Part shown: piece by piece, positions 6,601-59,590 of the stretch
Layout of the letters: each line of letters begins with the position of its first letter
How positions within the stretch are numbered: position 1 is the stretch's first letter
Origin: Phycisphaerae bacterium
GTDB lineage: Bacteria; Planctomycetota; Phycisphaerae; UBA1845
Direction of reading: 5' to 3'
NCBI GenBank assembly: GCA_024102815.1
Contig: JAGFJJ010000005.1
Location: 167,363 to 231,362, forward strand
Length of the DNA stretch: 64,000 nt
The notes under the pieces: model-generated
The model's database searches: none
Told to the model about the DNA's origin: nothing
The model's input: the letters and a program-made list of their open reading frames with translations, nothing else
Program-made: the position numbers and the translations under genes

Positions 6601-7977
6601 ATGACGAAAGAATTCGTCGCGGCCGAGCCCAGGCTCACGTGGCGCTACCCCGCACGATTCTGGATCGCTAACGTCGGCGAGCTTTTCGAGCGTGCGGCGT
6701 ACTATGGCATGTTCATTTCGCTGACGCTGTACCTCAGTCGGGTCGTCGAGTTCAGCGATCGGGAGGCGGGCGTGGTTTCCGGGACCTTTGCCGCCGTGCT
6801 TTATCTCATGCCGCTATTCATGGGAGCGCTGGCCGACAAGATCGGGTTTCGGCGGGCCTTGATGGCGGCGTTTGCCCTGCTGGCCATCGGGTACTTGCTA
6901 ATGGGCGCCGTTCCCGGCAAGGTCTCAACGCTTGCGGCGCTGGGGTTCGTCGCGATAGGCGGGGCGATCGTCAAGCCGGTGATCAGCGGGACGGTATCGC
7001 TGAGTTCCGACGATACCAACCGCGCCCGGGCCTTTTCGATATTCTACTTCATGGTCAACGTCGGAAGCTTCACGGGCAAGACCGTGGCCGCTCCGCTCCG
7101 CGAATATTGGAGCCTCGAGCACATCATGTACTATGCCTCGGCGATGGCCGTCTGCGGGTTCATTGTCACGGCGCTGTTCTATCGCCACGAGGATACTCCC
7201 GGCACGGCCAAGCGGCCGAGTGAAGTGCTGACCGGGCTGTTCAAGGTCGTGCTCAACTTCCGGTTTATGGCCCTGATCGTCATCATCGCTGGTTTTTGGT
7301 TGATTCAGGGACAGCTGTATGCGAGCATTCCCAAGTACGTCCTGCGCCTGCAGGGCGAAGCGGCCAAGCCCGAATGGCTGGCGAACATCAATCCGCTCAT
7401 TGTCGTATTGCTGGTCGTGCCCATCACGCATATGGTGCGAAATCTCAAGCCGGTTATCTCGATTGGCATTGGGCTTTTCATCATACCGCTCGCGGCATTG
7501 AGCATTGCTCTGACTCCTATGTTGGAAGGAATCGCGGGGTCTTTGATCGATTTCGGTGCCTTCACCCTGCATCCTCTCACGGTGATGGCCATCGTGGGCA
7601 TTGCCATGATCGGCCTGGCCGAGTGCTTCCTCTCCCCGAAATTCCTGGAGTTCGCGTCGAAACAGGCCCCACCGGGAGAGGAGGGGCTGTACATGGGCTA
7701 TCAGAATCTGACCGTTTTTATCGCATGGTTCGTAGGATTCATCCTGGCGGGTGACCTGCTAGTTCGCTACTGCCCCGATCCGGCGACGCTGCCGGAAGCC
7801 GTGCAACGGCAGTGGGAAACGGCGATCGCGACGGGGAGTGCGTTGCCCGAAGCCTACGCCCATGCCCACTACATCTGGTTCGTGTTCGCGGCGATCGGCG
7901 GGGCGGCGTTCGTGGCGTTGTGGATCTTCTGGCTGGTGACCAGTTGGCTGGACAAGAAGGGTGAATCTGCGGGGTAG
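6601..7977 (+). CDS. POT/PTR-type MFS transporter (peptide:proton symporter family)
   Basis: The 458-residue protein has about 12 membrane spans. Near the N-terminus it has the E-x-x-E-R-x-x-Y-Y signature (G-E-L-F-E-R-A-A-Y-Y-G) that marks proton-coupled oligopeptide transporters, and a G-A-L-A-D-K-I-G-F-R-R-A loop like the MFS loop 2-3 motif. Members usually import di- and tripeptides with protons, but divergent members carry other solutes, so the substrate is not certain. A strong AAAGGAG ribosome-binding site sits about 9 bases before the ATG. A second, only distantly similar POT gene occurs at 28.4-30 kb. Confidence 0.85.
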   Translation: MTKEFVAAEPRLTWRYPARFWIANVGELFERAAYYGMFISLTLYLSRVVEFSDREAGVVSGTFAAVLYLMPLFMGALADKIGFRRALMAAFALLAIGYLLMGAVPGKVSTLAALGFVAIGGAIVKPVISGTVSLSSDDTNRARAFSIFYFMVNVGSFTGKTVAAPLREYWSLEHIMYYASAMAVCGFIVTALFYRHEDTPGTAKRPSEVLTGLFKVVLNFRFMALIVIIAGFWLIQGQLYASIPKYVLRLQGEAAKPEWLANINPLIVVLLVVPITHMVRNLKPVISIGIGLFIIPLAALSIALTPMLEGIAGSLIDFGAFTLHPLTVMAIVGIAMIGLAECFLSPKFLEFASKQAPPGEEGLYMGYQNLTVFIAWFVGFILAGDLLVRYCPDPATLPEAVQRQWETAIATGSALPEAYAHAHYIWFVFAAIGGAAFVALWIFWLVTSWLDKKGESAG

Positions 7978-21379: not shown

Positions 21380-21553
21380 GGCGCGTCTTTCCCTATTGCA
21401 GGCGTTCGGGTGTAAAACTCCCAACCAGACCGGCGTGGATTGTCCAAGTGGGTGCGAAGACTGTCAACGCGACGCACCGCATCGCGGAATCGGCGGCTCT
21501 TCCGTGACAACCCTCGCCTCGTGCGTTCTAATGCCTCGCGGGAGGACTTTTCG

Positions 21554-22861
21554 ATGACCAAGTTGACGGAGGTCAGGCGGACACGCTCGGCCGAGCTCTT
21601 CAAGAAAGCGTGCAATCTGCTCGTCGGAGGCGTGAACAGCCCCGTGCGGGCCTTCCGCGCCGTCGGTGGCGAGCCCGTGTTTCTCGAGCGCGCCGAAGGT
21701 GCTTACGTTTTTGACGTTGACGGGAACCGCTACGTCGACCTCGTGGGGACCTGGGGGCCGGCGATCGTGGGCCACGCCCATCCGGCCGTCGTCGAGGCGG
21801 TTCAGCAAGCGGCGACGCGTGGGCTGAGTTTTGGGGCATGCTGTGCCGCCGAAGCGGAGCTCGCGGAGATCGTCGTTTCGGCATTGCCTTCAGTCGAGAT
21901 GATCCGGTTTGTCAACAGCGGGACAGAAGCGGCCATGAGCGCCATTCGGTTGGCGCGGGCCGCGACGAAGCGATCGTGCGTGGTGAAGTTCACGGGTTGC
22001 TACCACGGTCATACCGATGGCTTGCTCGTCGCGGCCGGATCGGGCGCGGCGACCTTTGGCGAGCCGGACTCCGCCGGCGTGCCACCGGAATACGCCCGGC
22101 TGACATTGCTGGCCGAATACAACGACCTTCCCAGTGTTGAAAAACTGCTTGCTGAACACGGGTCGAAAGTCGCCGCGATACTTGTCGAGCCGGTCGCGGG
22201 GAACATGGGCTTTGTTTTGCCGGAGCCGGGCTTCCTCGAAGGCTTGCGGAGCCTGTGCGATCGACACGGCTGCCTGCTGGTTTTCGATGAAGTGATGACC
22301 GGCTTTCGTGTCGCGTGGGGCGGATACCAGAATCACTGCGGCGTCCGACCCGACCTGACCGTGCTCGGCAAGGTCATCGGCGGCGGCATGCCCGTTGCCG
22401 CGTACGGCGGTCCGCGAAAGATCATGGAGTTTCTCAGCCCACTGGGCCCGACGTACCAGGCCGGGACGCTCAGCGGGAACCCGATCGGTATGGCTGCCGG
22501 AATTGCCACCTTGCAGATTTGCCAGTCGCCGGGATTCTACGAGGACCTTGAGTCGACGGCGGAGAGAGTCACTCGGGTGCTTGCATCCGCCGCTGAACAT
22601 GCGGGACTGCCCCTTCAAACCGGTTTTCACGGCGGGATGCTGGGAATGTACCTCTCGGACCATCCCGTACGCAACTTTGCCGATGCCAAACGTGCCGATC
22701 ACGCGCGCTTCGCCAGGTTCTTCAGGGCGATGCTCGATCGCGGCGTGTGGCTCCCGCCATCCGGATACGAGGCCATGTTCGTTTCCGCGGCGCATGACGA
22801 AGCGGCCATCAGCTACATCGGCGATGCGGCAAGGGAGGCGTTCCAGGAGGCGGCAAGATGA
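21554..22861 (+). CDS. hemL: Glutamate-1-semialdehyde 2,1-aminomutase
   Basis: HemL converts glutamate-1-semialdehyde to 5-aminolevulinate, the second step of the C5 heme pathway, using PLP or PMP. The 435-residue protein has N-S-P-V-R-A-F near the N-terminus, F-V-N-S-G-T-E-A-A-M-S-A-I-R-L-A-R-A, F-D-E-V-M-T-G-F-R and the PLP lysine in L-G-K-V-I-G-G-G-M-P. ATG 21554 has a GGGAGG Shine-Dalgarno 8 bases upstream. The stop overlaps the hemC start by 4 bases (ATGA), so hemL, hemC and hemD form a translation-coupled operon. The C5 route is confirmed by the HemA-like domain at 53.3-54.6 kb. Confidence 0.97.
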   Translation: MTKLTEVRRTRSAELFKKACNLLVGGVNSPVRAFRAVGGEPVFLERAEGAYVFDVDGNRYVDLVGTWGPAIVGHAHPAVVEAVQQAATRGLSFGACCAAEAELAEIVVSALPSVEMIRFVNSGTEAAMSAIRLARAATKRSCVVKFTGCYHGHTDGLLVAAGSGAATFGEPDSAGVPPEYARLTLLAEYNDLPSVEKLLAEHGSKVAAILVEPVAGNMGFVLPEPGFLEGLRSLCDRHGCLLVFDEVMTGFRVAWGGYQNHCGVRPDLTVLGKVIGGGMPVAAYGGPRKIMEFLSPLGPTYQAGTLSGNPIGMAAGIATLQICQSPGFYEDLESTAERVTRVLASAAEHAGLPLQTGFHGGMLGMYLSDHPVRNFADAKRADHARFARFFRAMLDRGVWLPPSGYEAMFVSAAHDEAAISYIGDAAREAFQEAAR

Positions 22862-23739
22862 GCAAACTGCGCGTCGGAACCCGCGGCAGCGACCTTGCCC
22901 TCTGGCAGACCGGATGGGTCTGCGATCGGCTTCGAGAAGCTCATCCGGGGCTCGAGATCGAGCGCATTATCATCAAGACGCACGGGGACGTCCGGCCTGA
23001 CGAGCCGTTCGGGGGCGACCTTCCGGTCGGGGCGTTTGTCACCGCTATTGAGCGCGCCCTGCAATCGAGCGAGGTGGATTTCGCCGTCCATAGTTACAAA
23101 GACCTCCAGACGGCCGAGACCGCCGGGCTGACCATCGCGGCCGTGCCGGTGCGTGAGGTTGTCCACGACGTGCTTCTCAGCCGGGCGCCGGTCGACCTGG
23201 CGCGTGTTCCAAACGGCTTCCGCTTGGGGACCAGCAGTCCGCGGCGGGCCGCGCAGTTCCGGCGGCTGGCAGAAATTGAGGTTGTAGCGATACGCGGCAA
23301 CGTCCCCACGCGCGTCGCCAAGCTTGAGTCGGACAAACTCGATGGGGTGGTTCTGGCCGGAGCAGGGCTCAAGCGCCTGGGAATTACCCACCCGCACATG
23401 ACAGCATTGCCGACGGATCGGTTTCCCCCAGCCCCGGCACAAGGGGCACTGGCTGTCCAGACTCGGTCGGACGATCCGGCCCAAGCGGTCATCGCGGCGA
23501 TTGACCACCGGAAAACGCGCCGGGCGGTGGATGCCGAGCGGTCGTTCCTTCGGACGATCGCGGCCGGTTGTCATACGCCCGTCGCAGCACTGGGAAGCGT
23601 CAATGGAGATTCCATTCGGCTTCATGCGCAGCTTTTCAGCGACGACTACACGCGTGTGGCCGAGGGGGTCGAGGAGGGGGGCGATCCTGTTGAGGTCGGG
23701 GCGGCGCTTGCCCGCAGGCTGCTCCACGAGCTGGGTTAA
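22858..23739 (+). CDS. hemC: Porphobilinogen deaminase (hydroxymethylbilane synthase)
   Basis: HemC joins four porphobilinogens into hydroxymethylbilane. The 293-residue protein shows V-G-T-R-G-S-D-L-A-L-W-Q-T at the N-terminus, F-A-V-H-S-Y-K-D-L, L-G-T-S-S-P-R-R-A-A-Q, I-R-G-N-V-P-T-R-V and the dipyrromethane-cofactor cysteine in A-A-G-C-H-T-P-V-A. It is a little short because the C-terminal domain is trimmed. H-S-Y-K-D replaces the common H-S-L-K-D, a minor change. It overlaps hemL by 4 bases and is followed by hemD after 66 bases. Confidence 0.96.
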   Translation: MSKLRVGTRGSDLALWQTGWVCDRLREAHPGLEIERIIIKTHGDVRPDEPFGGDLPVGAFVTAIERALQSSEVDFAVHSYKDLQTAETAGLTIAAVPVREVVHDVLLSRAPVDLARVPNGFRLGTSSPRRAAQFRRLAEIEVVAIRGNVPTRVAKLESDKLDGVVLAGAGLKRLGITHPHMTALPTDRFPPAPAQGALAVQTRSDDPAQAVIAAIDHRKTRRAVDAERSFLRTIAAGCHTPVAALGSVNGDSIRLHAQLFSDDYTRVAEGVEEGGDPVEVGAALARRLLHELG

Positions 23740-23805: not shown

Positions 23806-24465
23806 ATGATCCGCGTCTGGGTAACCCGAGAAGAAGACGATGACGGCCCGCTTTGCCATGCGCTGCGGGCCGCGGCGCTGGAGCCTGTCCTGGAACCGGT
23901 CATCGAGCGCCGCATTCTGGGGGATGCCCATCTGGTCATCGGCTCGCTTGCGGCCGAGGACTGGCTCGTGCTCACCAGTCCCTTCGCGGTGAATGCCGTC
24001 GAGCCCGGATCGGCCCGGGTGCCCAAGGTCGCCGTCGTGGGGGAGCCGTCCCGACAGGTGGCGCTGGCCCGGGGATTCCGCGTGGAGTTGGTGGGCAAGG
24101 GGGACGGCGAGAGCCTGTTCGAGATGCTCCGCCACCACGTGCATCACGGACGAGTCTGCTACCCGCGATCGTCGCTGGTGACGCCGCCGCACCCGTGGAG
24201 CGACGTGGAGATCCTCAGCCCCATTCTTTACGAGACCACCCGGCGGGACTTCGACCGCGATGTCGTTCATCGCGTGGACGTGATTTCCGTGGCCAGCGCG
24301 TCGGCCGTGCGCGCCGTCGGGAAGTACGACAAACGCTACGCGTCGATCGGATCAACGACGACGAAGGCGCTGCGGGAGTTGGGCGTTGATCCCTGGGTGC
24401 AGGCCGAGACGCCGAGCTTCGAGGCATTGGCGCAGGTGATAGCGAAAGCTGCGAAGGTCCCCTGA
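23806..24465 (+). CDS. hemD: Uroporphyrinogen-III synthase
   Basis: HemD closes hydroxymethylbilane with inversion of ring D. This family is poorly conserved, but the 219-residue protein keeps its features: V-W-V-T-R-E near the start, L-V-L-T-S-P-F-A-V-N-A-V, V-A-V-V-G-E-P-S, Y-P-R-S-S-L-V, Y-E-T-T-R, the second-domain S-V-A-S-A-S-A-V-R-A-V and the C-terminal S-I-G-S-T-T-T-K-A-L-R-E-L-G. Position directly after hemC supports the call. It is shorter than the usual 250 residues. Confidence 0.9.
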   Translation: MIRVWVTREEDDDGPLCHALRAAALEPVLEPVIERRILGDAHLVIGSLAAEDWLVLTSPFAVNAVEPGSARVPKVAVVGEPSRQVALARGFRVELVGKGDGESLFEMLRHHVHHGRVCYPRSSLVTPPHPWSDVEILSPILYETTRRDFDRDVVHRVDVISVASASAVRAVGKYDKRYASIGSTTTKALRELGVDPWVQAETPSFEALAQVIAKAAKVP

Positions 24466-51290: not shown

Positions 51291-51497
51291 CCGCAGAGGG
51301 TCGCTTCCCGATGTGTTTCCGCTGGAACACGGTTTGCAGTGGGTTCCGGTGGGCCAGAAGGCCGGAACGCGGCGCTTTGCCGCACCGTGCGTAATATCCA
51401 GCAGTCAGGCTCGTTTTCGGACGCCCGGCCAGTTCGGGGAAGGAATTGCGGTAGCAGGCATTGCCACCAGCGTTTGATCGACGAAAATGGAGAAAGG

Positions 51498-52049
51498 GTG
51501 CCGCTGGAAGCGATGAGCGTGATCTCGACAGTTTCCCGTCTGTTCTCCAGATCGTTGACCTGGCGCGTCTTCTGGGGGGCGATGATCCTCGCGCACGCCG
51601 AAGCGCTGGTCAGCGTTTGGCGCGGGCTGATTGAGTCGGGGCCCACAACGTCGACGATCGGCGGGTGCGTGGCGGTTTCGCTTTCGGTTCTGTTCTTTGC
51701 GATCAAGCTGAGTCATCCCGATTGGCTTCACATCCGCGGAGATCGCCGCGGATGGGTGGCGGTGTTCCTGGTGCTCTCGCTGATCCACGCGCATTGCCTG
51801 CCCACCTCGGCCGACGCACCCCCGGAAATGACCGCGTTCGCAGTGCTGACGGCGTCGGCCGTTGGCGGAACGCTATTGGTTCTCGAACTCGCCAAGCGCT
51901 CATCCAAGGGGCGGCGCGGTCTGGACGTACCGTCTTCTCTGCTTGCGCCCTGTGTTGACTGGGTCCGCAATCGACTCCTTGATGATCGTCCGACCTGCCG
52001 CGTTCTCGCTCTCCACGCTTTTTCCCTGCGCGCGCCCCCCTCTTGTTGA
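51498..52049 (+). CDS. Small membrane protein between CcsA and HemHA, unknown
   Basis: The 183-residue protein has four hydrophobic spans at about residues 20-40, 52-72, 83-103 and 108-132, and a cysteine-containing C-terminus. Nothing in it matches a family I know. Start choice: GTG 51498 has GGAG 5 bases upstream; ATG 51513 is the alternative. Its position between the CcsA gene (207 bases before) and the HemH-HemA gene (154 bases after), on the same strand, suggests a part in heme handling or cytochrome c assembly, which is inference only. Confidence 0.6.
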   Translation: MPLEAMSVISTVSRLFSRSLTWRVFWGAMILAHAEALVSVWRGLIESGPTTSTIGGCVAVSLSVLFFAIKLSHPDWLHIRGDRRGWVAVFLVLSLIHAHCLPTSADAPPEMTAFAVLTASAVGGTLLVLELAKRSSKGRRGLDVPSSLLAPCVDWVRNRLLDDRPTCRVLALHAFSLRAPPSC

Positions 52050-52203: not shown

Positions 52204-54576
52204 ATGAACATGTCACTGAATTTCACGGGAGAGAGTCATCCCGGTGCGGGGCGGAGTGAGCCAAGCCGCCGGACCGGGGTTCTGCTGGTCAACCTGGGGA
52301 CGCCGGATGGTCCGGACGTTCCGTCGGTTCGCCGGTACCTGGCCGAGTTCCTGAGCGATCCGGACGTCATCAGCCTGCCGCGCTACCTTCGGTGGATGAA
52401 CAAGCCGCTGGGCCACATGATCGCGCGCTTTCGCGCGCCGCAATCGGCGGAGATGTACCACAAGGTCTGGAGCGAGGCTGGCTCGCCGCTTTCCTCGATC
52501 ACGAATGAGCAAGTACTGCGCCTGGCGGAGAAGCTGCCGTCCGGCTGGCGGGTCTACGCGGGGATGCGTTACGGTAACCCGAGCATCGCCGCGACGCTGC
52601 GGCGGATTGCGGAGGACGGCGTGGATGATCTGATCGTCATGCCGATGTATCCTCAATACAGCGAGACGACCACCGGCACGGCGCTTCGCGAGATGTACCG
52701 CGCCCTGGAACGCGGGCGATACGGCATCAACGTCAGCACACGCAATACGTGGTACGACGACGGCGGCTACATCCACGCCCAAGCCGGGTTGATCGCCGAT
52801 TATGCCCAGGCCCACGCGCTGGTGCCCGAGGACACCGTGCTGCTGTTTTCGGCGCACGGGCTGCCGGTTGCCTACGTCAACCGCGGCGATCCCTACCCGC
52901 GGCACATTCAGCGAAGCATCGACCTGATCCGGGAACATCTCGGATGGCCTGAGGACCGCGTGCGGCTGGGGTATCAAAGCCGCCTCGGTCCGGTGGAATG
53001 GCTCCGTCCCGCAACGGACGATCTGCTCAAGGAATTGATCGGTGAGGGGAATCAGCGCATCCTGGTGTGTCCGATCAGTTTTACGACGGACTGCCTGGAG
53101 ACGCTGGAGGAGATTGACGTCCGCTACCGCGAGATCGTGGAGGCGGAAGGCGGAGATCTTTATCTTTGTCCGGCGTTGAACGCTTACGGCCCCTTCATCG
53201 ATGCGCTCAAGAATCTCGTTACGCGCGGGCCAAGACCCGTTTCCTCCTGGGGCGCGCGGAACGTCCCGCTGCTGGCCAAGCACGCGTCGCACGTCGCTGA
53301 GAGAGTCGAGAACTGGATTGATACGCTGGTCGTGGTCGGCGTGTCATTGGACAACCCGATGGGGTCAGGCTGCGGGCCGGATGTCGGTCATGCCGATCCT
53401 CTGCAGTTACACTGTGTGAAGAAATCGCAAGCCGAGATGCCGGATCTGCTGCGGCAGATCTGTGCCAACGGCGTGGTTCGCGAGGGCTTCGTCTGGAACA
53501 CGTGCCACCGGTTCGAGTTCTACGGCTGGGTCGACGAATCCAGGGACATGCCCGAGGGCGACTGCCTCGTGGCGCGGGTGCGACGGGCGCTGTTCAACGG
53601 GGGGGAACACGAGTCCCTGGCCGTCAACGTGCTTGTGGGGGCCGAGGCGTGGCATCACCTGGTGCGAACCGTGGTCGGCCTGAACAGTGGCCTCCCGGGC
53701 GACGCCGACATCATCGAGCAGCTCGAAACGGCCCAACGTCTGGCTGAGAGGACGGGAACCGCCGGTCCGCTTGTGCGCCGACTGGTGAGCGAAGCCGTGC
53801 GCGTCGAGCGGCTCCTGCGCCGCGAGACGGTCTGGGGACGCTTCAATCCGGGCTACTGTTACGCGGCGCTGTCCAAGGTCGCAGAGCGGAAGAATCTCGA
53901 CTTCGCGTCCATCCGTACGGTTGTCGTCGGCGGGTCCTCGACGTCGCGATCGGTCCTGAGCACGCTGATCCAGCGTTTCGATGTTCCCAGCAGGCATCTC
54001 ACTCTCGTGTATCGCGGGCATTCCGGCGGGCAGATCAAGGCGTTGCGCAAAGCCATCCAGAACGGCAAGCGGGTCCGCGTTCACAACTATGACGAGCGCG
54101 TGGTCTACGATGCCATCCGCGCGGCCGACATGCTCGTACTCGGCGTCGACCGTGACGAGCCCATCCTGCACGCGCGCGATCTTCGAGGTCTGCGTGATTA
54201 CGCCGAGCGTCCCCTGACGGTGCTGGATTTTAACACCTTCGGATCTACGGAAGGAATCGAGGCTATTCCCGGGGTGCGCGTCATTCACGCCGGTGAGCTG
54301 GAGGAACTCGTTGGCGCATTCGCTTCAGACATGTGCGCCAGTGAGTCCTTCCGCCAAGCCGTGGACGAAGCCGAGCACTGGATCGTTGATCGCATTCCCG
54401 AGGTGGATTCCCCGCGTATTCGCCCGCACGCCTGCCACGAGCCGCTCCCGCGCGTCCGTGACGAGCAACAGGGGAGCGAATGGAGCGCGGCGTCGCAGCG
54501 CTGGCGCAAGTGCGTACGGTGCACGAAACTGCGCATCGGCCAGGAGGTCGATCAACTGGAAAGGAGCATTTCATGA
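52204..54576 (+). CDS. Fusion of ferrochelatase (HemH) and glutamyl-tRNA reductase-like (HemA) domains
   Basis: One 790-residue open frame joins two heme enzymes. Residues about 22-360 are ferrochelatase: G-V-L-L-V-N-L-G-T-P-D-G-P, the catalytic histidine (about 218) in F-S-A-H-G-L-P, and P-I-S-F-T-T-D-C-L-E-T-L-E-E-I-D with the conserved glutamates. From about 370 the sequence reads L-V-V-V-G-V-S-L-D-N-P, as at the start of glutamyl-tRNA reductase, then W-N-T-C-H-R-F-E-F-Y with the catalytic cysteine (about 434), the V-G-L-N-S region, an NADPH-binding-like V-V-V-G-G-S-S-T-S and a short C-terminus. In the HemA half the catalytic histidine and the G-E-P-Q-I-L-G-Q motif are not conserved. Start ATG 52204 is tentative. 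The stop overlaps hemN by 4 bases. Confidence 0.85.
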   Translation: MNMSLNFTGESHPGAGRSEPSRRTGVLLVNLGTPDGPDVPSVRRYLAEFLSDPDVISLPRYLRWMNKPLGHMIARFRAPQSAEMYHKVWSEAGSPLSSITNEQVLRLAEKLPSGWRVYAGMRYGNPSIAATLRRIAEDGVDDLIVMPMYPQYSETTTGTALREMYRALERGRYGINVSTRNTWYDDGGYIHAQAGLIADYAQAHALVPEDTVLLFSAHGLPVAYVNRGDPYPRHIQRSIDLIREHLGWPEDRVRLGYQSRLGPVEWLRPATDDLLKELIGEGNQRILVCPISFTTDCLETLEEIDVRYREIVEAEGGDLYLCPALNAYGPFIDALKNLVTRGPRPVSSWGARNVPLLAKHASHVAERVENWIDTLVVVGVSLDNPMGSGCGPDVGHADPLQLHCVKKSQAEMPDLLRQICANGVVREGFVWNTCHRFEFYGWVDESRDMPEGDCLVARVRRALFNGGEHESLAVNVLVGAEAWHHLVRTVVGLNSGLPGDADIIEQLETAQRLAERTGTAGPLVRRLVSEAVRVERLLRRETVWGRFNPGYCYAALSKVAERKNLDFASIRTVVVGGSSTSRSVLSTLIQRFDVPSRHLTLVYRGHSGGQIKALRKAIQNGKRVRVHNYDERVVYDAIRAADMLVLGVDRDEPILHARDLRGLRDYAERPLTVLDFNTFGSTEGIEAIPGVRVIHAGELEELVGAFASDMCASESFRQAVDEAEHWIVDRIPEVDSPRIRPHACHEPLPRVRDEQQGSEWSAASQRWRKCVRCTKLRIGQEVDQLERSIS

Positions 54577-55997
54577 TCGTCGCCGCCAGCGCCGTTGATT
54601 TGCAGGTATTTCGTCGCTACGCGGGACTCTCGCTGCCACGGCATGTCTCGTACCCGATGCCGACCTGGTGGCAGCCGCTTGACCAGGAATCGATCGGTGC
54701 GTTGCACGAGCGAGCCCGCGATCCCCACCGTGGGCACGGTGTTTCGCTCTATGTGCACATTCCGTTCTGCGAGCAATTGTGCAAGTTCTGTGCATGCACA
54801 CGCATCATCCAGCGCAAGACGGCTCCCGGTGCGGAAGAACGCACGGAGCGTTACCTCGCCGCGCTGGAGACGGAGCTGGCCCGAATGGTGGACGCCATCG
54901 GCCGGGACCGCGTCGTTCGCCAGGTTCACTGGGGCGGAGGCAGTCCGACGTACCTTTCGGCCGAGCAGATCGGTCGCATTCAGCGACGTATCGGCGAGCT
55001 TTACAATATTGCCGACGATGCCGAGATTGCAATGGAGATTGATCCGCGATCGTGCCCGCCGGAAAAGCTGGTGTCGATCCGCTCTTTCGGGTTCAACCGC
55101 GTCTCGCTGGGCGTGCAGGACTTCGACGAGCGAGTGCAGGAGCATGTGCGGCGGATTCAGCCGTTGGAGCTCGTGCAGTCCACGGTGGCGAAGGCTCGCG
55201 AACTCGGTTTCGATTCGGTCAACTTCGATCTGATCTACGGGCTGCCCTATCAGACGACGGACTCGGTACGGGAACTGGTCGATCGGACGATCGAGCTCTC
55301 TCCGGATCGGATCGCGTTTTACCACTATGCGCAAATCCCGGACAAGATCGCCACGCAGCGCGGCATGGATTACACCAAACTGCCCGACAGCGAGGCCAAG
55401 CTGGCGATGTTTCTCGTCGGGCTGTACCGGTTCCAGGAGGCGGGCTACGAGTTCGTGGGGCTGGACCACTTCGCCCGTCCGACGGAGGCCCTGTCTCGCG
55501 CGGCCGATGACGGCACGCTCCAACGCAATTTCCAGGGCATGACCACCGGCGGCGGGCTTGATTTGTACGGCGCCGGGGCTTCGTCGATCAGCCACCTGAT
55601 GGGGATCGGCTTCCTCCAGAACGTACGCGAGGTGGATGATTACGTGGAGCGTATCGAAGGTGGCACGTTACCCATTCATCGTGGCAAGCCGTTCACGGAC
55701 GATGACCTGATCCGCCAGGGCGTGCTCAACCAGCTCTACTGTGCCGGCGAGATCCGTCCGGCGGTGATCGAGCGTGTTTATGGGATCACCTTCGCGGACT
55801 ACTTCGCCCGGGAACTGGGCATCATGGCCGAACTGGAGCGCGACGGACTGGTGAGCATGGAGGACAGCGGCGTGATCAGGGCGACGGTGCCCCTGGGGCG
55901 GGTGCTCATGCGAACCATCGCGGCCGTGTTCGACGCGTACCTGGAAGCCGACGCCTACCGCGTGGGCGATCGGAATTGTTTCTCGGCCAACGCTTAG
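54573..55997 (+). CDS. hemN: Oxygen-independent coproporphyrinogen III oxidase
   Basis: HemN is a radical-SAM enzyme that decarboxylates coproporphyrinogen III without oxygen. The 474-residue protein has the cluster-binding motif Y-V-H-I-P-F-C-E-Q-L-C-K-F-C-A-C near residue 60 (C-x3-C-x2-C plus the HemN-specific following cysteine), G-G-G-S-P-T-Y-L, E-I-D-P-R and the later F-D-L-I-Y-G-L-P-Y-Q-T and E-F-V-G-L-D-H-F-A. A-R-P-T-E-A-L follows. The length and C-terminal domain match true HemN rather than HemW. The start ATG 54573 has AAGGAG 7 bases upstream and overlaps the HemHA stop (ATGA), so the two are translated together. Confidence 0.96.
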   Translation: MIVAASAVDLQVFRRYAGLSLPRHVSYPMPTWWQPLDQESIGALHERARDPHRGHGVSLYVHIPFCEQLCKFCACTRIIQRKTAPGAEERTERYLAALETELARMVDAIGRDRVVRQVHWGGGSPTYLSAEQIGRIQRRIGELYNIADDAEIAMEIDPRSCPPEKLVSIRSFGFNRVSLGVQDFDERVQEHVRRIQPLELVQSTVAKARELGFDSVNFDLIYGLPYQTTDSVRELVDRTIELSPDRIAFYHYAQIPDKIATQRGMDYTKLPDSEAKLAMFLVGLYRFQEAGYEFVGLDHFARPTEALSRAADDGTLQRNFQGMTTGGGLDLYGAGASSISHLMGIGFLQNVREVDDYVERIEGGTLPIHRGKPFTDDDLIRQGVLNQLYCAGEIRPAVIERVYGITFADYFARELGIMAELERDGLVSMEDSGVIRATVPLGRVLMRTIAAVFDAYLEADAYRVGDRNCFSANA

Positions 55998-56017
55998 TGT
56001 CAGATTGGCGGCACTCG

Positions 56018-57073
56018 ATGTTGCGAAATGATCTGGTATTGCGGGCGGCCCGGGGCGAGCGGACGCCGCGCACCCCGGTCTGGCTGATGCGCCAGGCGGG
56101 GCGGTTCGATCCGCAGTACCGCGACCTCCGCCAGCGGGCGGACCTTCCGCTGGAATTGCTTTTCCGCCACGTCGATCTGAGTGTGGAGATCTCCCTGCTG
56201 CCCAGGCGATTCGGCGTTGACGCAATCATCTTCTTTCAGGACATCCTCACGCCACTGGCGCCGATGGGCGCGGACTTCGTATTCCGACCCGGTCCCGTGC
56301 TGGAGTCGCCCATCCGCGACGAATCCGGTCTCGCCCGGCTTCGACCGTACGATCCGCAGCAGGAGCTGCCCTTCATTCCCGCGACACTGCAGGCGCTGAA
56401 GCGCGAACTCGACGGCGAATTGCCATTGCTGGGCTTTGGAGGTGCGCCGCTGACGCTGGCGTTCTTTTTGTTGGAGGGCGGCAGCCCGCATCCCGATCCG
56501 CAGCGGACAAGATCCCTGATGGAGCAGTCGCCGCGGGTTATGCACGATCTGCTCGATAAATTGACCGCGATGACCGCATCCTACCTGGCATCGCAGATTG
56601 AATCGGGCGTGGATGCGGTGCAGCTTTTCGAATCTGCTGCAGACCTGGTTTCTCTGGAGGCGTACGAGGAATTCGCCCTGCCGTACCAGCAGCGCGTGTT
56701 CGAGGCGATTGGAAAGCGCGTGCCGAAGATCCTGTTTGCCAAGGACTTCGCGGATGTGGAACTGCTTACCCGCGCCGGCGCGGATGTCATCAGCCTGTCA
56801 TCGGCTGTCGATCTCGCCGAAGCGCGCGCAAGGATAGGGCCGGGCGTCGCTGTTCAGGGGAACGTGAACAATCGGCTGATGGTGGAAGGATCGCCCGAAG
56901 CAGTCGAGGCGGCAGCGCGGCGCTGCATCGAAGCGGGAAATCACAGTGGCCACATCCTCAATCTTGGCCACGGCCTCCTTCAGGACACGCCGGTCGAAAA
57001 CGTGCAGCGGCTTGTGAATACCGCCCGTGAAATGCGCCTGAATGATGTCGCAGGCGCGACGAAACCGGGATAG
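56018..57073 (+). CDS. hemE: Uroporphyrinogen decarboxylase
   Basis: HemE removes four carboxyl groups from uroporphyrinogen III. The 351-residue protein has the full family set: V-W-L-M-R-Q-A-G-R near residue 22, then F-F-Q-D-I-L-T-P-L near 80, F-G-G-A-P-L-T-L near 145, Q-L-F-E-S-A-A-D and the C-terminal I-L-N-L-G-H-G-L. F-Q-D-I-L replaces the usual F-S-D-I-L. It begins 20 bases after hemN and ends 6 bases before the next gene, so all belong to one operon. Confidence 0.97.
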   Translation: MLRNDLVLRAARGERTPRTPVWLMRQAGRFDPQYRDLRQRADLPLELLFRHVDLSVEISLLPRRFGVDAIIFFQDILTPLAPMGADFVFRPGPVLESPIRDESGLARLRPYDPQQELPFIPATLQALKRELDGELPLLGFGGAPLTLAFFLLEGGSPHPDPQRTRSLMEQSPRVMHDLLDKLTAMTASYLASQIESGVDAVQLFESAADLVSLEAYEEFALPYQQRVFEAIGKRVPKILFAKDFADVELLTRAGADVISLSSAVDLAEARARIGPGVAVQGNVNNRLMVEGSPEAVEAAARRCIEAGNHSGHILNLGHGLLQDTPVENVQRLVNTAREMRLNDVAGATKPG

Positions 57074-57079
57074 ACGATC

Positions 57080-58534
57080 ATGAGTGGGACGACCCGGGAG
57101 GTCATCGTAGTCGGAGGCGGCGTCAGCGGACTGACGACCGCGTGGCACCTCCACCGACTCGGCGTTGACGTCGCCTTGCTCGAAGCGGAGGCAAGAGTCG
57201 GTGGCTGCACGAAGACCGAGCAGCGGGGCGGGTTCCTGCTGGAGAAGGGGCCATTCAATGTCATTGTTCGCGATCCGTCCTTTCAGGCACTGTTGGAGGC
57301 GATGGCTGACCGTGTCAATGTAGTCACCGCCTCTAAAGCCGCCCGAGCCCGCTTCCTTTACCGCCGCGGCGGGCTCGTCAAGGTACCTTCGGATCCCTTC
57401 TCATTGCTGTTTACGCCGCTTCTCAGTCCGCGTGCGCGACTTCGGCTCGTGCGCGGGCTGTTCTACAGCGGGAAGGGGAGTGATGAAGAGGAGACCATCG
57501 AACAGGTGGCATCGCGTCGCGTTGGCGTGGAGGCAACAGATACGCTGATCAGCGCCGTCGTCTCGGGAATTTTCGGCGGAGACATTCACAAGCTCAGCCT
57601 GCCGGCCTGTTTCCCTTCGGTGGCCCGCGTCGATCGCCAGGCGCGAAGTCTCGTCGGGTATGGGATTGCGCAGGCCTTTCGCGGTGGCAGGACAAAAGGC
57701 GGCAAGCCACGGCGGCGATGGCGGGGTCTGGTCAGCATTGATGCGGGCTTGGGCGGATTGATGGAAGCCTTGGGGGCGACGTTGGGGGACGATTTGCGAA
57801 CGGGAATCGCCGTGCGCGAAATTCGTGCTTTGGAACGGGGGGAGTCTGACGGGGCGCGGTATGAGCTCCTGTGCCGGACCAATGCTGGAAACGACGAGAC
57901 GTGGCGTTGTCGGCGACTCGTGCTGGCGACGCTGGCGCCCGCCTCGGCCGAATTATTGGAAGGGCTCGTGCCCGATGCTGCGGCTGACCTGCGTGGTATC
58001 GAAAGCGTTTCGCTATGCGTATTGAACCTCGGATTTAGTGCATCGGATATCTCGCATGATCTGCGCGGATTCGGTTTTCTCGTTCCGCGGAATGAACCGG
58101 ATCTGCCGGTGATGGGAATTCTCTGGGCGGACAGCATCTTCCCGCATCACGTACCCGAAGGGAAACGCCTCATCCGCGTGTTCGTGGGCGGTGCGCGTGA
58201 TCCCGGCGCCGTGGATCGCAACGATGCTCAGCTCTTGGACGCGGGCATGAACACCGCGCGCAAGTTGCTCGGCATTCGCGGCGACCCGATGCTGGTTGAT
58301 GTTTCCCGATGGCGGGAGGCGATCCCACAGTATTATCCGGGCCACGTGGAGCGCATCCGCCGTGTGCGGACGGCCGTCGCCGCAAGACAGGGCCTGTTTC
58401 TGGTCGGCAACTACCTTGACGGGGTCTCATTGAACGATTGCATTCGCCTGGGCACGGTTACCGGGGAACGCATCGCAGAGGATATTGCGGGAACGCTGAG
58501 CGGCGTTACCCATCAACAACTGCAACCGTCGTGA
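57080..58534 (+). CDS. hemY: Protoporphyrinogen/coproporphyrinogen oxidase (HemY type)
   Basis: This FAD enzyme oxidises protoporphyrinogen IX (or, in the coproporphyrin-dependent route, coproporphyrinogen III). The 484-residue protein starts with a Rossmann dinucleotide fold V-I-V-V-G-G-G-V-S-G-L-T-T-A, then L-E-A-E-A-R-V-G-G-C and L-E-K-G-P-F-N-V, with the family's G-I-F-G-G-D near residue 165 and a C-terminal FAD-contacting V-G-N-Y-L-D-G-V-S-L-N-D-C. Protoporphyrinogen as substrate is more likely because hemN (oxygen-independent) precedes it, but the true substrate is not proved. The operon position after hemE is firm. Confidence 0.93.
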   Translation: MSGTTREVIVVGGGVSGLTTAWHLHRLGVDVALLEAEARVGGCTKTEQRGGFLLEKGPFNVIVRDPSFQALLEAMADRVNVVTASKAARARFLYRRGGLVKVPSDPFSLLFTPLLSPRARLRLVRGLFYSGKGSDEEETIEQVASRRVGVEATDTLISAVVSGIFGGDIHKLSLPACFPSVARVDRQARSLVGYGIAQAFRGGRTKGGKPRRRWRGLVSIDAGLGGLMEALGATLGDDLRTGIAVREIRALERGESDGARYELLCRTNAGNDETWRCRRLVLATLAPASAELLEGLVPDAAADLRGIESVSLCVLNLGFSASDISHDLRGFGFLVPRNEPDLPVMGILWADSIFPHHVPEGKRLIRVFVGGARDPGAVDRNDAQLLDAGMNTARKLLGIRGDPMLVDVSRWREAIPQYYPGHVERIRRVRTAVAARQGLFLVGNYLDGVSLNDCIRLGTVTGERIAEDIAGTLSGVTHQQLQPS

Positions 58535-58564
58535 CAAAGACACAGCTTGGATGGAGGGTTCGCG

Positions 58565-59590
58565 ATGGCAAATTCCAGTGATCTACCTCGGCCTCATCGT
58601 CGTCCGCGGCGTATGCGGCGCAGCGAGACCATCAGGCGGCTGGTCCGTGAGACGCGGCTCACGCCCGATCGATTGATCCTGCCGCAGTTCATCATCGAGG
58701 GGCAGGGCAAGAACGAGTCGATCGACGCCATGCCCGGACGGTCGAGGTTGTCGATTGACCTGACCATCGAGGAATGCCACAAGGCGATGGAGCTCGGCGT
58801 CCGCTCCTTTGCCCTGTTCCCGGCCGTGGACCCCAAGCTCAAGACCAATGACGGACGCGAAGCCCTCAACAGCGAAAACCTTCTTTGCCGTGCCGTGCGG
58901 GCCATCAAGAAGGAGTGCCCCGAGGCCTGTGTGATCACCGACATCGCCCTCGATCCGTACTCCAGCGCCGGGCACGACGGCATCGTCAGCCCCAAAGGTG
59001 TGATCCTCAACGATGAATCCGTGGATGTTCTGGCGAAGATGGCCGTGGTTCACGCGAGGTGCGGGGCCGACATTGTGGCACCGTCGGACATGATGGACGG
59101 CCGGGTGGAAGCCATGCGCGAGGCGCTGGATGGCGCCGGCTTCGCGGACGTGGCGATCCTCGCCTATACGGCGAAATACGCGTCCGCCTTCTACGGGCCT
59201 TTCCGCGAGGCGCTGGACAGCGCTCCGGTCGACGCTCCAAACGTGCCCAAGGATAAGAAGACCTACCAGATGGATCCGGCCAACGCCCGTGAGGCGGTGA
59301 TCGAGGCAATGCTCGACGAGGCCGAGGGCGCCGACATGATCATGGTCAAGCCCGCGCTGCCCTATCTCGACGTGATCCACCGCCTGCGGCAGGAGACGGC
59401 ATTGCCCATCGCGGCGTACAACGTGAGCGGCGAGTTCGCCATGATCAAGGCGGCCGCGCGCCTGGGCTGGCTCAACGAAAAAGCGTGCATGATGGAGGCC
59501 GTGCAGGCCATCGCCCGCGCCGGCGCAGACATCATCCTTTCCTACGCCGCCCTGGATTACGCGAAGTGGTGGCGCGAAGATCTCGGATAG
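58565..59590 (+). CDS. hemB: Delta-aminolevulinic acid dehydratase (porphobilinogen synthase)
   Basis: HemB condenses two 5-aminolevulinates to porphobilinogen. The 341-residue protein has R-R-P-R-R-M-R-R near the N-terminus, the metal site region [23 protein letters not shown], the catalytic lysines in Y-T-A-K-Y-A-S and M-V-K-P-A-L-P-Y, and E-F-A-M-I-K. D-P-Y-S-S replaces the cysteine-rich D-V-C-x-C-x-Y, so this is a magnesium-type, not zinc-type, enzyme. ATG 58565 has GGAGGG 6 bases upstream. It ends the heme operon and faces deoC. Confidence 0.97.

Follow-up and report, generated by a model that had tools for sequence, protein, structure and literature searches.

Why would a bacterium carry the last and the first enzyme of heme biosynthesis, ferrochelatase (HemH) and glutamyl-tRNA reductase (GluTR), in a single polypeptide chain? 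The question is raised by a hemH-hemA-like fusion gene in a window of 64,000 nucleotides from a Phycisphaerae bacterium (contig JAGFJJ010000005.1 of assembly GCA_024102815.1), the window being the whole stretch of DNA analysed here. To our knowledge, the way in which bacteria outside the model groups match the synthesis of 5-aminolevulinate (ALA) to heme demand is mostly open. The answer we favour, to which we give slightly less than an even chance, is that one chain combines a ferrochelatase with a likely working but divergent GluTR, and that the ferrochelatase half likely also serves as a control domain on the reductase half. The GluTR-like half is labelled HemA* below and was not filed as canonical HemA.

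The joined halves and their likely activities

The sequence-only reading had described one frame encoding a ferrochelatase followed by a GluTR-like domain. This was confirmed, as the frame of 790 residues is free of stops and both PF00762 and GlutR_N (residues 405-542, 62.7 bits; Pfam cut-off 27) scored above their cut-offs. The identity of both halves stood; the analysis added that the GluTR half belongs to a divergent subfamily without the dimerisation domain. The window protein scored 303 bits with the NCBIfam model TIGR00109 for hemH (cut-off 124.6), and in the alignment of planctomycete fusions the residues aligned with the catalytic ferrochelatase pair were kept in 40/40 (His216) and 39/40 (Glu297). 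We rate it as highly probable that the HemH half of the window protein is a working ferrochelatase. Structure prediction covering the joint, which had been proposed earlier, gave models of both halves with a partly low-confidence linker; the mutual orientation of the domains was left open (predicted template modelling score, pTM, 0.53).

The HemA* half contains the Thr-Cys-x-Arg-x-Glu motif and the His of the GluTR active site. Cys432, aligned with the GluTR nucleophile, was kept in all HemA* proteins of three architectures (198/198), namely 114/114 planctomycete fusions, 71/71 fusions of the Gemmatimonadota type and 13/13 fusions with a Met8/CysG-like half, where the rows were cut at the TC pattern and none was dropped for lacking TC. 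His483 was kept in 111/114, 71/71 and 13/13 of the same sets, and in 22/25 genomic fusions. In a tree, HemA* formed a separate clade on a long branch (support 100/100).

In the window genome (95% complete), the fusion was the sole GlutR_N match, hemL scored above its cut-off, and the best match to ALA synthase remained below it (281.5 bits; cut-off 338.55), which indicates the C5 pathway. The survey covered 397 evenly drawn genomes of the class; 42 had a ferrochelatase over the cut-off, fused in 26 and unfused in 16. In 18 of these 26 fusion genomes, the window's included, no GlutR_N match other than HemA* was present, while each of the 26 had a hemL match (22 above the cut-off, with an internal stop in the G278 copy, and four cut by contig ends). 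On this basis HemA* is likely the working GluTR, and we consider that very probable on sequence grounds. HemA* was accordingly ruled out as a pseudo-domain accompanying a normal HemA in those 18 genomes; the other eight do have such a HemA.

In six of the eight two-copy genomes, a SUMT match was found no more than 2 kb from the stand-alone HemA (G346: a fragment at a contig end), G142 and G325 being the exceptions. Similarly, among seven HemH-less relatives examined, HemA was within 3 kb of SUMT in six, and G065 had neither. Because of this proximity, the stand-alone HemA appears mostly tied to the siroheme/cobalamin branch and the fused copy to heme. SUMT matches were present in 13 of the 18 fused-only genomes (in G388 only under the curated cut-off), and therefore HemA* there would feed both branches. 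A strict branch split, with the fused copy for heme only and the stand-alone copy for siroheme only, was thus rejected as a general rule. In G224 (L091, L085), a short stand-alone HemA without PF00745 lies about 20 bases before a CbiX-type chelatase, followed by SUMT; this arrangement is a second pairing of the entry enzyme with a chelatase.

Relatives of the fusion and the fate of the chelatase half

A search for the same joined architecture, as suggested in the sequence-only reading, recovered it in 26 of the 397 class genomes with stop-free frames of 763-873 residues, and all of the best 120 of 149 protein matches carried both domains; two had a radical SAM (HemN) domain in addition. Since the single-frame fusion recurs in 26 genomes, a sequencing or assembly artefact was ruled out. 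Scanning named genomes yielded 39 loci, 37 of which have a single frame for HemH and HemA*; by title, 36 loci were from Phycisphaerae or other Planctomycetota, two from Gemmatimonadota and one from Candidatus Hinthialibacteria. This collection overlaps the 397-genome draw, as contigs of identical length in the two show, so it is not an independent sample and the counts are not additive. Among 25 matches, those without PF00762 were mostly on short contigs or started inside the first HemA* strand, the exceptions being P0127 and P0135 (27 and 32 kb). In G394, a genome of the same family (71% complete), a HemH of the fused clade (L119, 7348-8457) ended near residue 304, and no HemA* was found within the 17 kb examined. 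No report of a HemH-HemA fusion was found by title or abstract start in the openly licensed part of PubMed Central (CC0, CC BY, CC BY-SA). Both domains belong to known families, whereas, as far as these searches go, there is no earlier description of a fusion between the first and the last step, of a GluTR-like subfamily that lacks the dimerisation domain, or of degenerate chelatase partners.

A second clade, labelled Gemmatimonadota-type, comprised 71 proteins of 600-720 residues from P0159-P0241 (83 proteins, 12 others being dropped); hosts were named for four of the 71, three Gemmatimonadota and one Zixiibacteriota. PF00762 was present in 69/71 by database listing, and the other two matched under the cut-off. 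When the 71 were aligned together with 40 of the 114 planctomycete fusions, 68 HemH halves lacked both the catalytic His and Glu, two had Glu only and one had His only. Motif patterns detected the His or Glu motif in 0/71, but among the 114 planctomycete fusions these patterns also overlook the Glu motif in 26 and the His motif in 3. The HemA* half stays intact in these 71 proteins, and the ferrochelatase fold of the HemH half was predicted to be kept in the one protein modelled.

In the protein of locus L152 (P0146) and 12 relatives (P0147-P0158), a Met8/CysG-type domain replaces HemH. In the alignment, Ser takes the place of CysG Asp104 in L152, and Ser was found by the same motif in 13/13 of these proteins. 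According to the cited excerpt, the CysG variant D104A had neither dehydrogenase nor chelatase activity (PMC7018833). The 13 Met8/CysG-like fusions branched within the degenerate-HemH group in a tree containing every fourth of the 71 proteins and every second of the 13. The chelatase-like partner can therefore outlive its catalysis while HemA* remains intact, suggesting a control or structural job. Because the domain was kept after catalytic loss in a whole clade, and exchanged for another degenerate domain in one branch, it likely does something for HemA*.

These relatives bear on the explanation that the joint is a plain tether, which holds two independent enzymes for 1:1 expression or co-localisation without communication. 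A tether predicts that both enzymes stay active, whereas 71 relatives retain a HemH half without the catalytic pair, and in 13 the Met8-like half has Ser in place of the catalytic Asp. We consider a tether unlikely, even though it fits the partly low-confidence linker of about 25 residues, the conserved operon, the occurrence of HemA* alone in some relatives, and the triple fusions with HemN, which show that adjacent genes can simply merge.

Downstream of the fusion at the two Gemmatimonadota loci examined (L152 and L170) lie a SUMT-HemD gene and, at a greater distance, the gene of a PF03601 membrane protein, a siroheme-type setting. The PF03601 neighbour is perhaps a link to sulfur metabolism.

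Two separate genes, with a stop and a start close to the joint, occurred only in the distant Candidatus Hinthialibacteria OLB16 (L156). The gene order there is small membrane open reading frame, hemH, hemA*, hemN and hemE; hemH ends at 7950 and the ATG of hemA* is at 7947, giving two genes with a 4-base overlap. The OLB16 HemA* (395 residues, without PF00745) is the sole GlutR_N match in its genome. In the trees it grouped among the fused proteins, with modest support, and the base of this group was poorly resolved. Because of this placement, an ancestral state cannot be told from later splitting, and a simple history from unfused ancestor to fusion was left unsupported. Apparently true stand-alone HemA* proteins of 378-401 residues, with no chelatase-like half and no PF00745, are P0192 (56 kb contig), P0243 (53 kb) and P0217 (7 kb), which are among the 11 of 109 new proteins with fewer than 110 residues ahead of the TC motif. 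In P0214 (888 kb contig), HemA* is preceded only by a remnant of the HemH end.

Two further arrangements were observed. In G026 (L092, 4057-10022, minus strand), hemH adjoins an unfused canonical hemA with PF00745, followed by hemC, hemE and the protoporphyrinogen oxidase (PPO) gene, and its HemH falls on a different branch. G025 (L100, 9285-11492, minus strand), which was not among the genomes with a HemH match, encodes an independent single-frame fusion of a Met8-like domain, GluTR (GlutR_N, Shikimate_DH) and HemC, of 736 residues.

The separate and stand-alone forms bear on the idea that the chelatase-fold half is a structural partner, which replaces the missing dimerisation domain and keeps HemA* in a productive shape or oligomer without sensing any ligand. 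A scaffold of this kind would suit a partner that may be an active HemH, a degenerate HemH or a Met8-like domain. The idea is in line with the lack of PF00745 in the fusion, set against its presence in the canonical HemA of G026, and with the low confidence of the C-terminal tail in the model. However, in OLB16 HemA* forms a polypeptide of its own, lacks PF00745 and is the sole GlutR_N match, which argues that attachment is not essential. P0192, P0217 and P0243 point the same way, as does the short HemA of G224, which is without PF00745 as well. A purely structural role is rated as rather unlikely.

Proposed control of HemA* and points that weigh on it

In the proposed mechanism, the window protein would be a bifunctional enzyme, a ferrochelatase together with a divergent, likely active GluTR. 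HemA* would reduce glutamyl-tRNA, the ferrochelatase half would bind a tetrapyrrole as a signal, and this signal would pass across the joint to HemA*; heme or porphyrin occupying the ferrochelatase half would restrain HemA* in this way. The N-terminus of GluTR is, in the fusion, the joint with HemH. Ligand-mediated regulation of HemA* by the HemH half is a tentative proposal, which we put somewhat short of an even chance, and it is our choice to prefer ligand-dependent control to structural replacement of the dimerisation domain. The suggestion of the sequence-only reading, that the fusion could sense heme and so govern entry into the pathway, gains indirect support from the 71 Gemmatimonadota-type relatives, whose HemH half remains joined to an intact GluTR half after the loss of its catalytic residues.

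A wider history, in which ferrochelatase is the built-in product sensor of GluTR, can be imagined and is held to be doubtful. In Planctomycetota the domain would make heme and report to the entry enzyme. In a Gemmatimonadota lineage, the fused genes would have moved to a siroheme-type locus, where the ferrochelatase half would have lost catalysis and persisted purely as a tetrapyrrole sensor; one branch would have swapped it for a degenerate siroheme-synthase domain, as a sensor matched to the new pathway branch.

A number of results speak against the preferred control reading. As for supply, HemA* is not always the sole source, since a stand-alone HemA accompanies the fusion in eight of the 26 fusion genomes, and both Gemmatimonadota genomes examined have a canonical HemA as well; that of G399 lies on one contig with hemC, hemB, hemE, hemH, PPO and hemL. 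Two fusion genomes (G278 and G325) carry an additional unfused HemH. As for HemA* itself, the GxG of the nucleotide loop is lost, with Ser at the third position in 25/25 fused proteins and Gly in 32/32 canonical HemA. This comparison included 25 of the 26 fusion genomes (G325 omitted) and canonical HemA chosen from available loci, and the loops were located by the TC motif. The N-terminal GluTR motif is lost, the window protein gave no PF00745 match at E 0.01, and Arg occupies the position of His483 in G039, G347 and G368, all without another GlutR_N. As for communication between the halves, the domain orientation in the model is uncertain, a degenerate HemH half may have been retained purely for structural reasons, and the stand-alone HemA* proteins indicate that some lineages can do without the partner, so that the argument for an indispensable role loses weight.

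The losses in HemA*, together with the second HemA in eight genomes and the score with the hemA equivalog TIGR01035 (63.6 bits; cut-off 209.55), would fit a HemA* that is not a reductase but an appendage of ferrochelatase, derived from GluTR and with a regulatory or tRNA-binding role. Such an appendage is nevertheless very unlikely, because 18 of 26 fusion genomes, each with a hemL match, show no GlutR_N besides HemA*, as does OLB16, and because Cys432 is conserved without exception across the three architectures.

The family provides a natural series, consisting of separate overlapping genes, active fusion, fusion with degenerate HemH, exchange for a degenerate siroheme-synthase domain, and HemA* alone, and the question is thus testable in one protein family. 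As HemA* is a GluTR-like subfamily far under the HemA equivalog cut-off, genomes that carry it could be scored as lacking hemA.

Gene neighbourhood and comparison with known systems

The features of the locus are collected in the table. The heme operon setting was borne out by profile matches, the fusion being followed by hemN, hemE, PPO and hemB, and the 4-base overlap with hemN that had been noted earlier is indeed present (ATGA at 54573-54576). The hemL, hemC and hemD genes sit 28-30 kb upstream of the fusion within the same window. Across the 39 loci, hemN adjoins or is fused to the fusion in 34, and hemN, hemE, PPO and hemB are all present in 21. Many of the remaining loci without the full operon are on short contigs; L126 and L135 lack hemN despite long contigs. 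Single-frame triple fusions of HemH, HemA* and HemN were seen at L151 (5714-9421) and L153 (6834-10202), and in P0086 and P0103.

Table. Positions of the fusion, its parts and other heme-related genes (window coordinates unless a locus is named; pLDDT, predicted local distance difference test)
Feature	Position	Strand	Remarks
hemH-hemA* fusion gene	52204..54576	+	ATG 52204, TGA 54574-54576; 790 residues, zero internal stops
Alternative ATG of fusion	52210		788 residues; P0001 numbering, used for His216, Glu297, Cys432 and His483
Ferrochelatase half	52270..53226	+	PF00762, residues 23-341 of 790, 336 bits (Pfam cut-off 27)
His216	52855..52857	+	Aligned with catalytic ferrochelatase His
Glu297	53098..53100	+	Aligned with catalytic ferrochelatase Glu
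Linker joining halves	53233..53310	+	About 25 residues; partly low-confidence in model, pLDDT <50 at 358-366
HemA* half	53311..54414	+	GluTR catalytic and Rossmann domains
Cys432	53503..53505	+	NTC motif; aligned with GluTR nucleophile
His483	53656..53658	+	Aligned with His84 of M. kandleri GluTR
GGSSTS nucleotide loop	53929..53946	+	Replaces canonical GxG
C-terminal tail	54415..54573	+	Low confidence, pLDDT <50 at 735-767 and 769-784; canonical GluTR has its dimerisation domain there
hemN	54573..55997	+	TIGR00538, 447.6 bits (cut-off 325); ATGA overlap with fusion
hemE	55976..57073	+	TIGR01464, 304 bits (cut-off 303)
PPO	57080..58534	+	TIGR00562, 262 bits (cut-off 98)
hemB	58547..59590	+	PF00490, 446 bits; NF006762, 474.5 bits (cut-off 297)
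hemL	21440..22861	+	Match 21587-22849, TIGR00713, 586 bits (cut-off 527)
hemC	22858..23739	+	PF01379, 210 bits; PF03900, 47 bits
hemD	23806..24465	+	PF02602, 74.8 bits (cut-off 27.5)
Small membrane open reading frame	51339..52049	+	Upstream of fusion; about 3 predicted membrane segments
PF03601 membrane protein	L170 462-1748	-	Downstream of SUMT-HemD
PF03601 membrane protein	L152 6359-7744		Downstream of SUMT-HemD

ResB and CcsA lie immediately upstream, as identified with Pfam. The small membrane open reading frame had zero Pfam family matches; its homologue precedes the fusion in 30 of the 39 loci, including the separate hemH-hemA* of OLB16, and it is a candidate partner or HemX-like regulator. 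In the C-terminal tail (window positions 54430-54573, and homologues), a CxxC preceded by Cys or His occurs in 58/116 planctomycete fusions, compared with a mean of 12.7 for CxxC in shuffled sequences. It is a possible metal site; it is absent from the other 58 fusions and was not used as evidence for heme binding, no systematic search for heme motifs having been made.

HemA* resembles canonical GluTR HemA (TIGR01035, PF05201/PF01488/PF00745) in GlutR_N, the Thr-Cys-x-Arg-x-Glu motif, the active-site His and the overall fold of the first two domains. It differs in forming a separate long-branch clade, in its GGSTTS loop, in the absence of the N-terminal motif and PF00745, and in scoring under the TIGR01035 cut-off. 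Compared with ferrochelatase HemH (TIGR00109, PF00762), the HemH of the fusion carries HemA* at its C-terminus, and the Gemmatimonadota-type relatives are without the catalytic pair.

Control at GluTR has precedents. As stated in the cited excerpts, GBP, Clp and heme control Arabidopsis GluTR by way of its N-terminus, Clp and Lon degrade the bacterial enzyme (PMC6597238), and in B. subtilis and S. aureus the amount of GluTR is reduced by the membrane protein HemX (PMC10991733). The latter excerpt also states that S. aureus GluTR can lose its own heme binding with heme homeostasis unaltered. Going by these excerpts, the HemX system of B. subtilis and S. aureus and the GBP system of plants resemble the proposal, in that GluTR is the control point and heme the signal (PMC10991733, PMC6597238). 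However, HemX and GBP are separate proteins, whereas the putative control domain here would be in the same chain. The CysG siroheme synthase, as far as the excerpt describes it, resembles the fusion as a tetrapyrrole enzyme with an earlier step and a terminal dehydrogenase/chelatase in one chain (PMC7018833). CysG joins consecutive steps, whereas the fusion joins the first and the last steps of the pathway.
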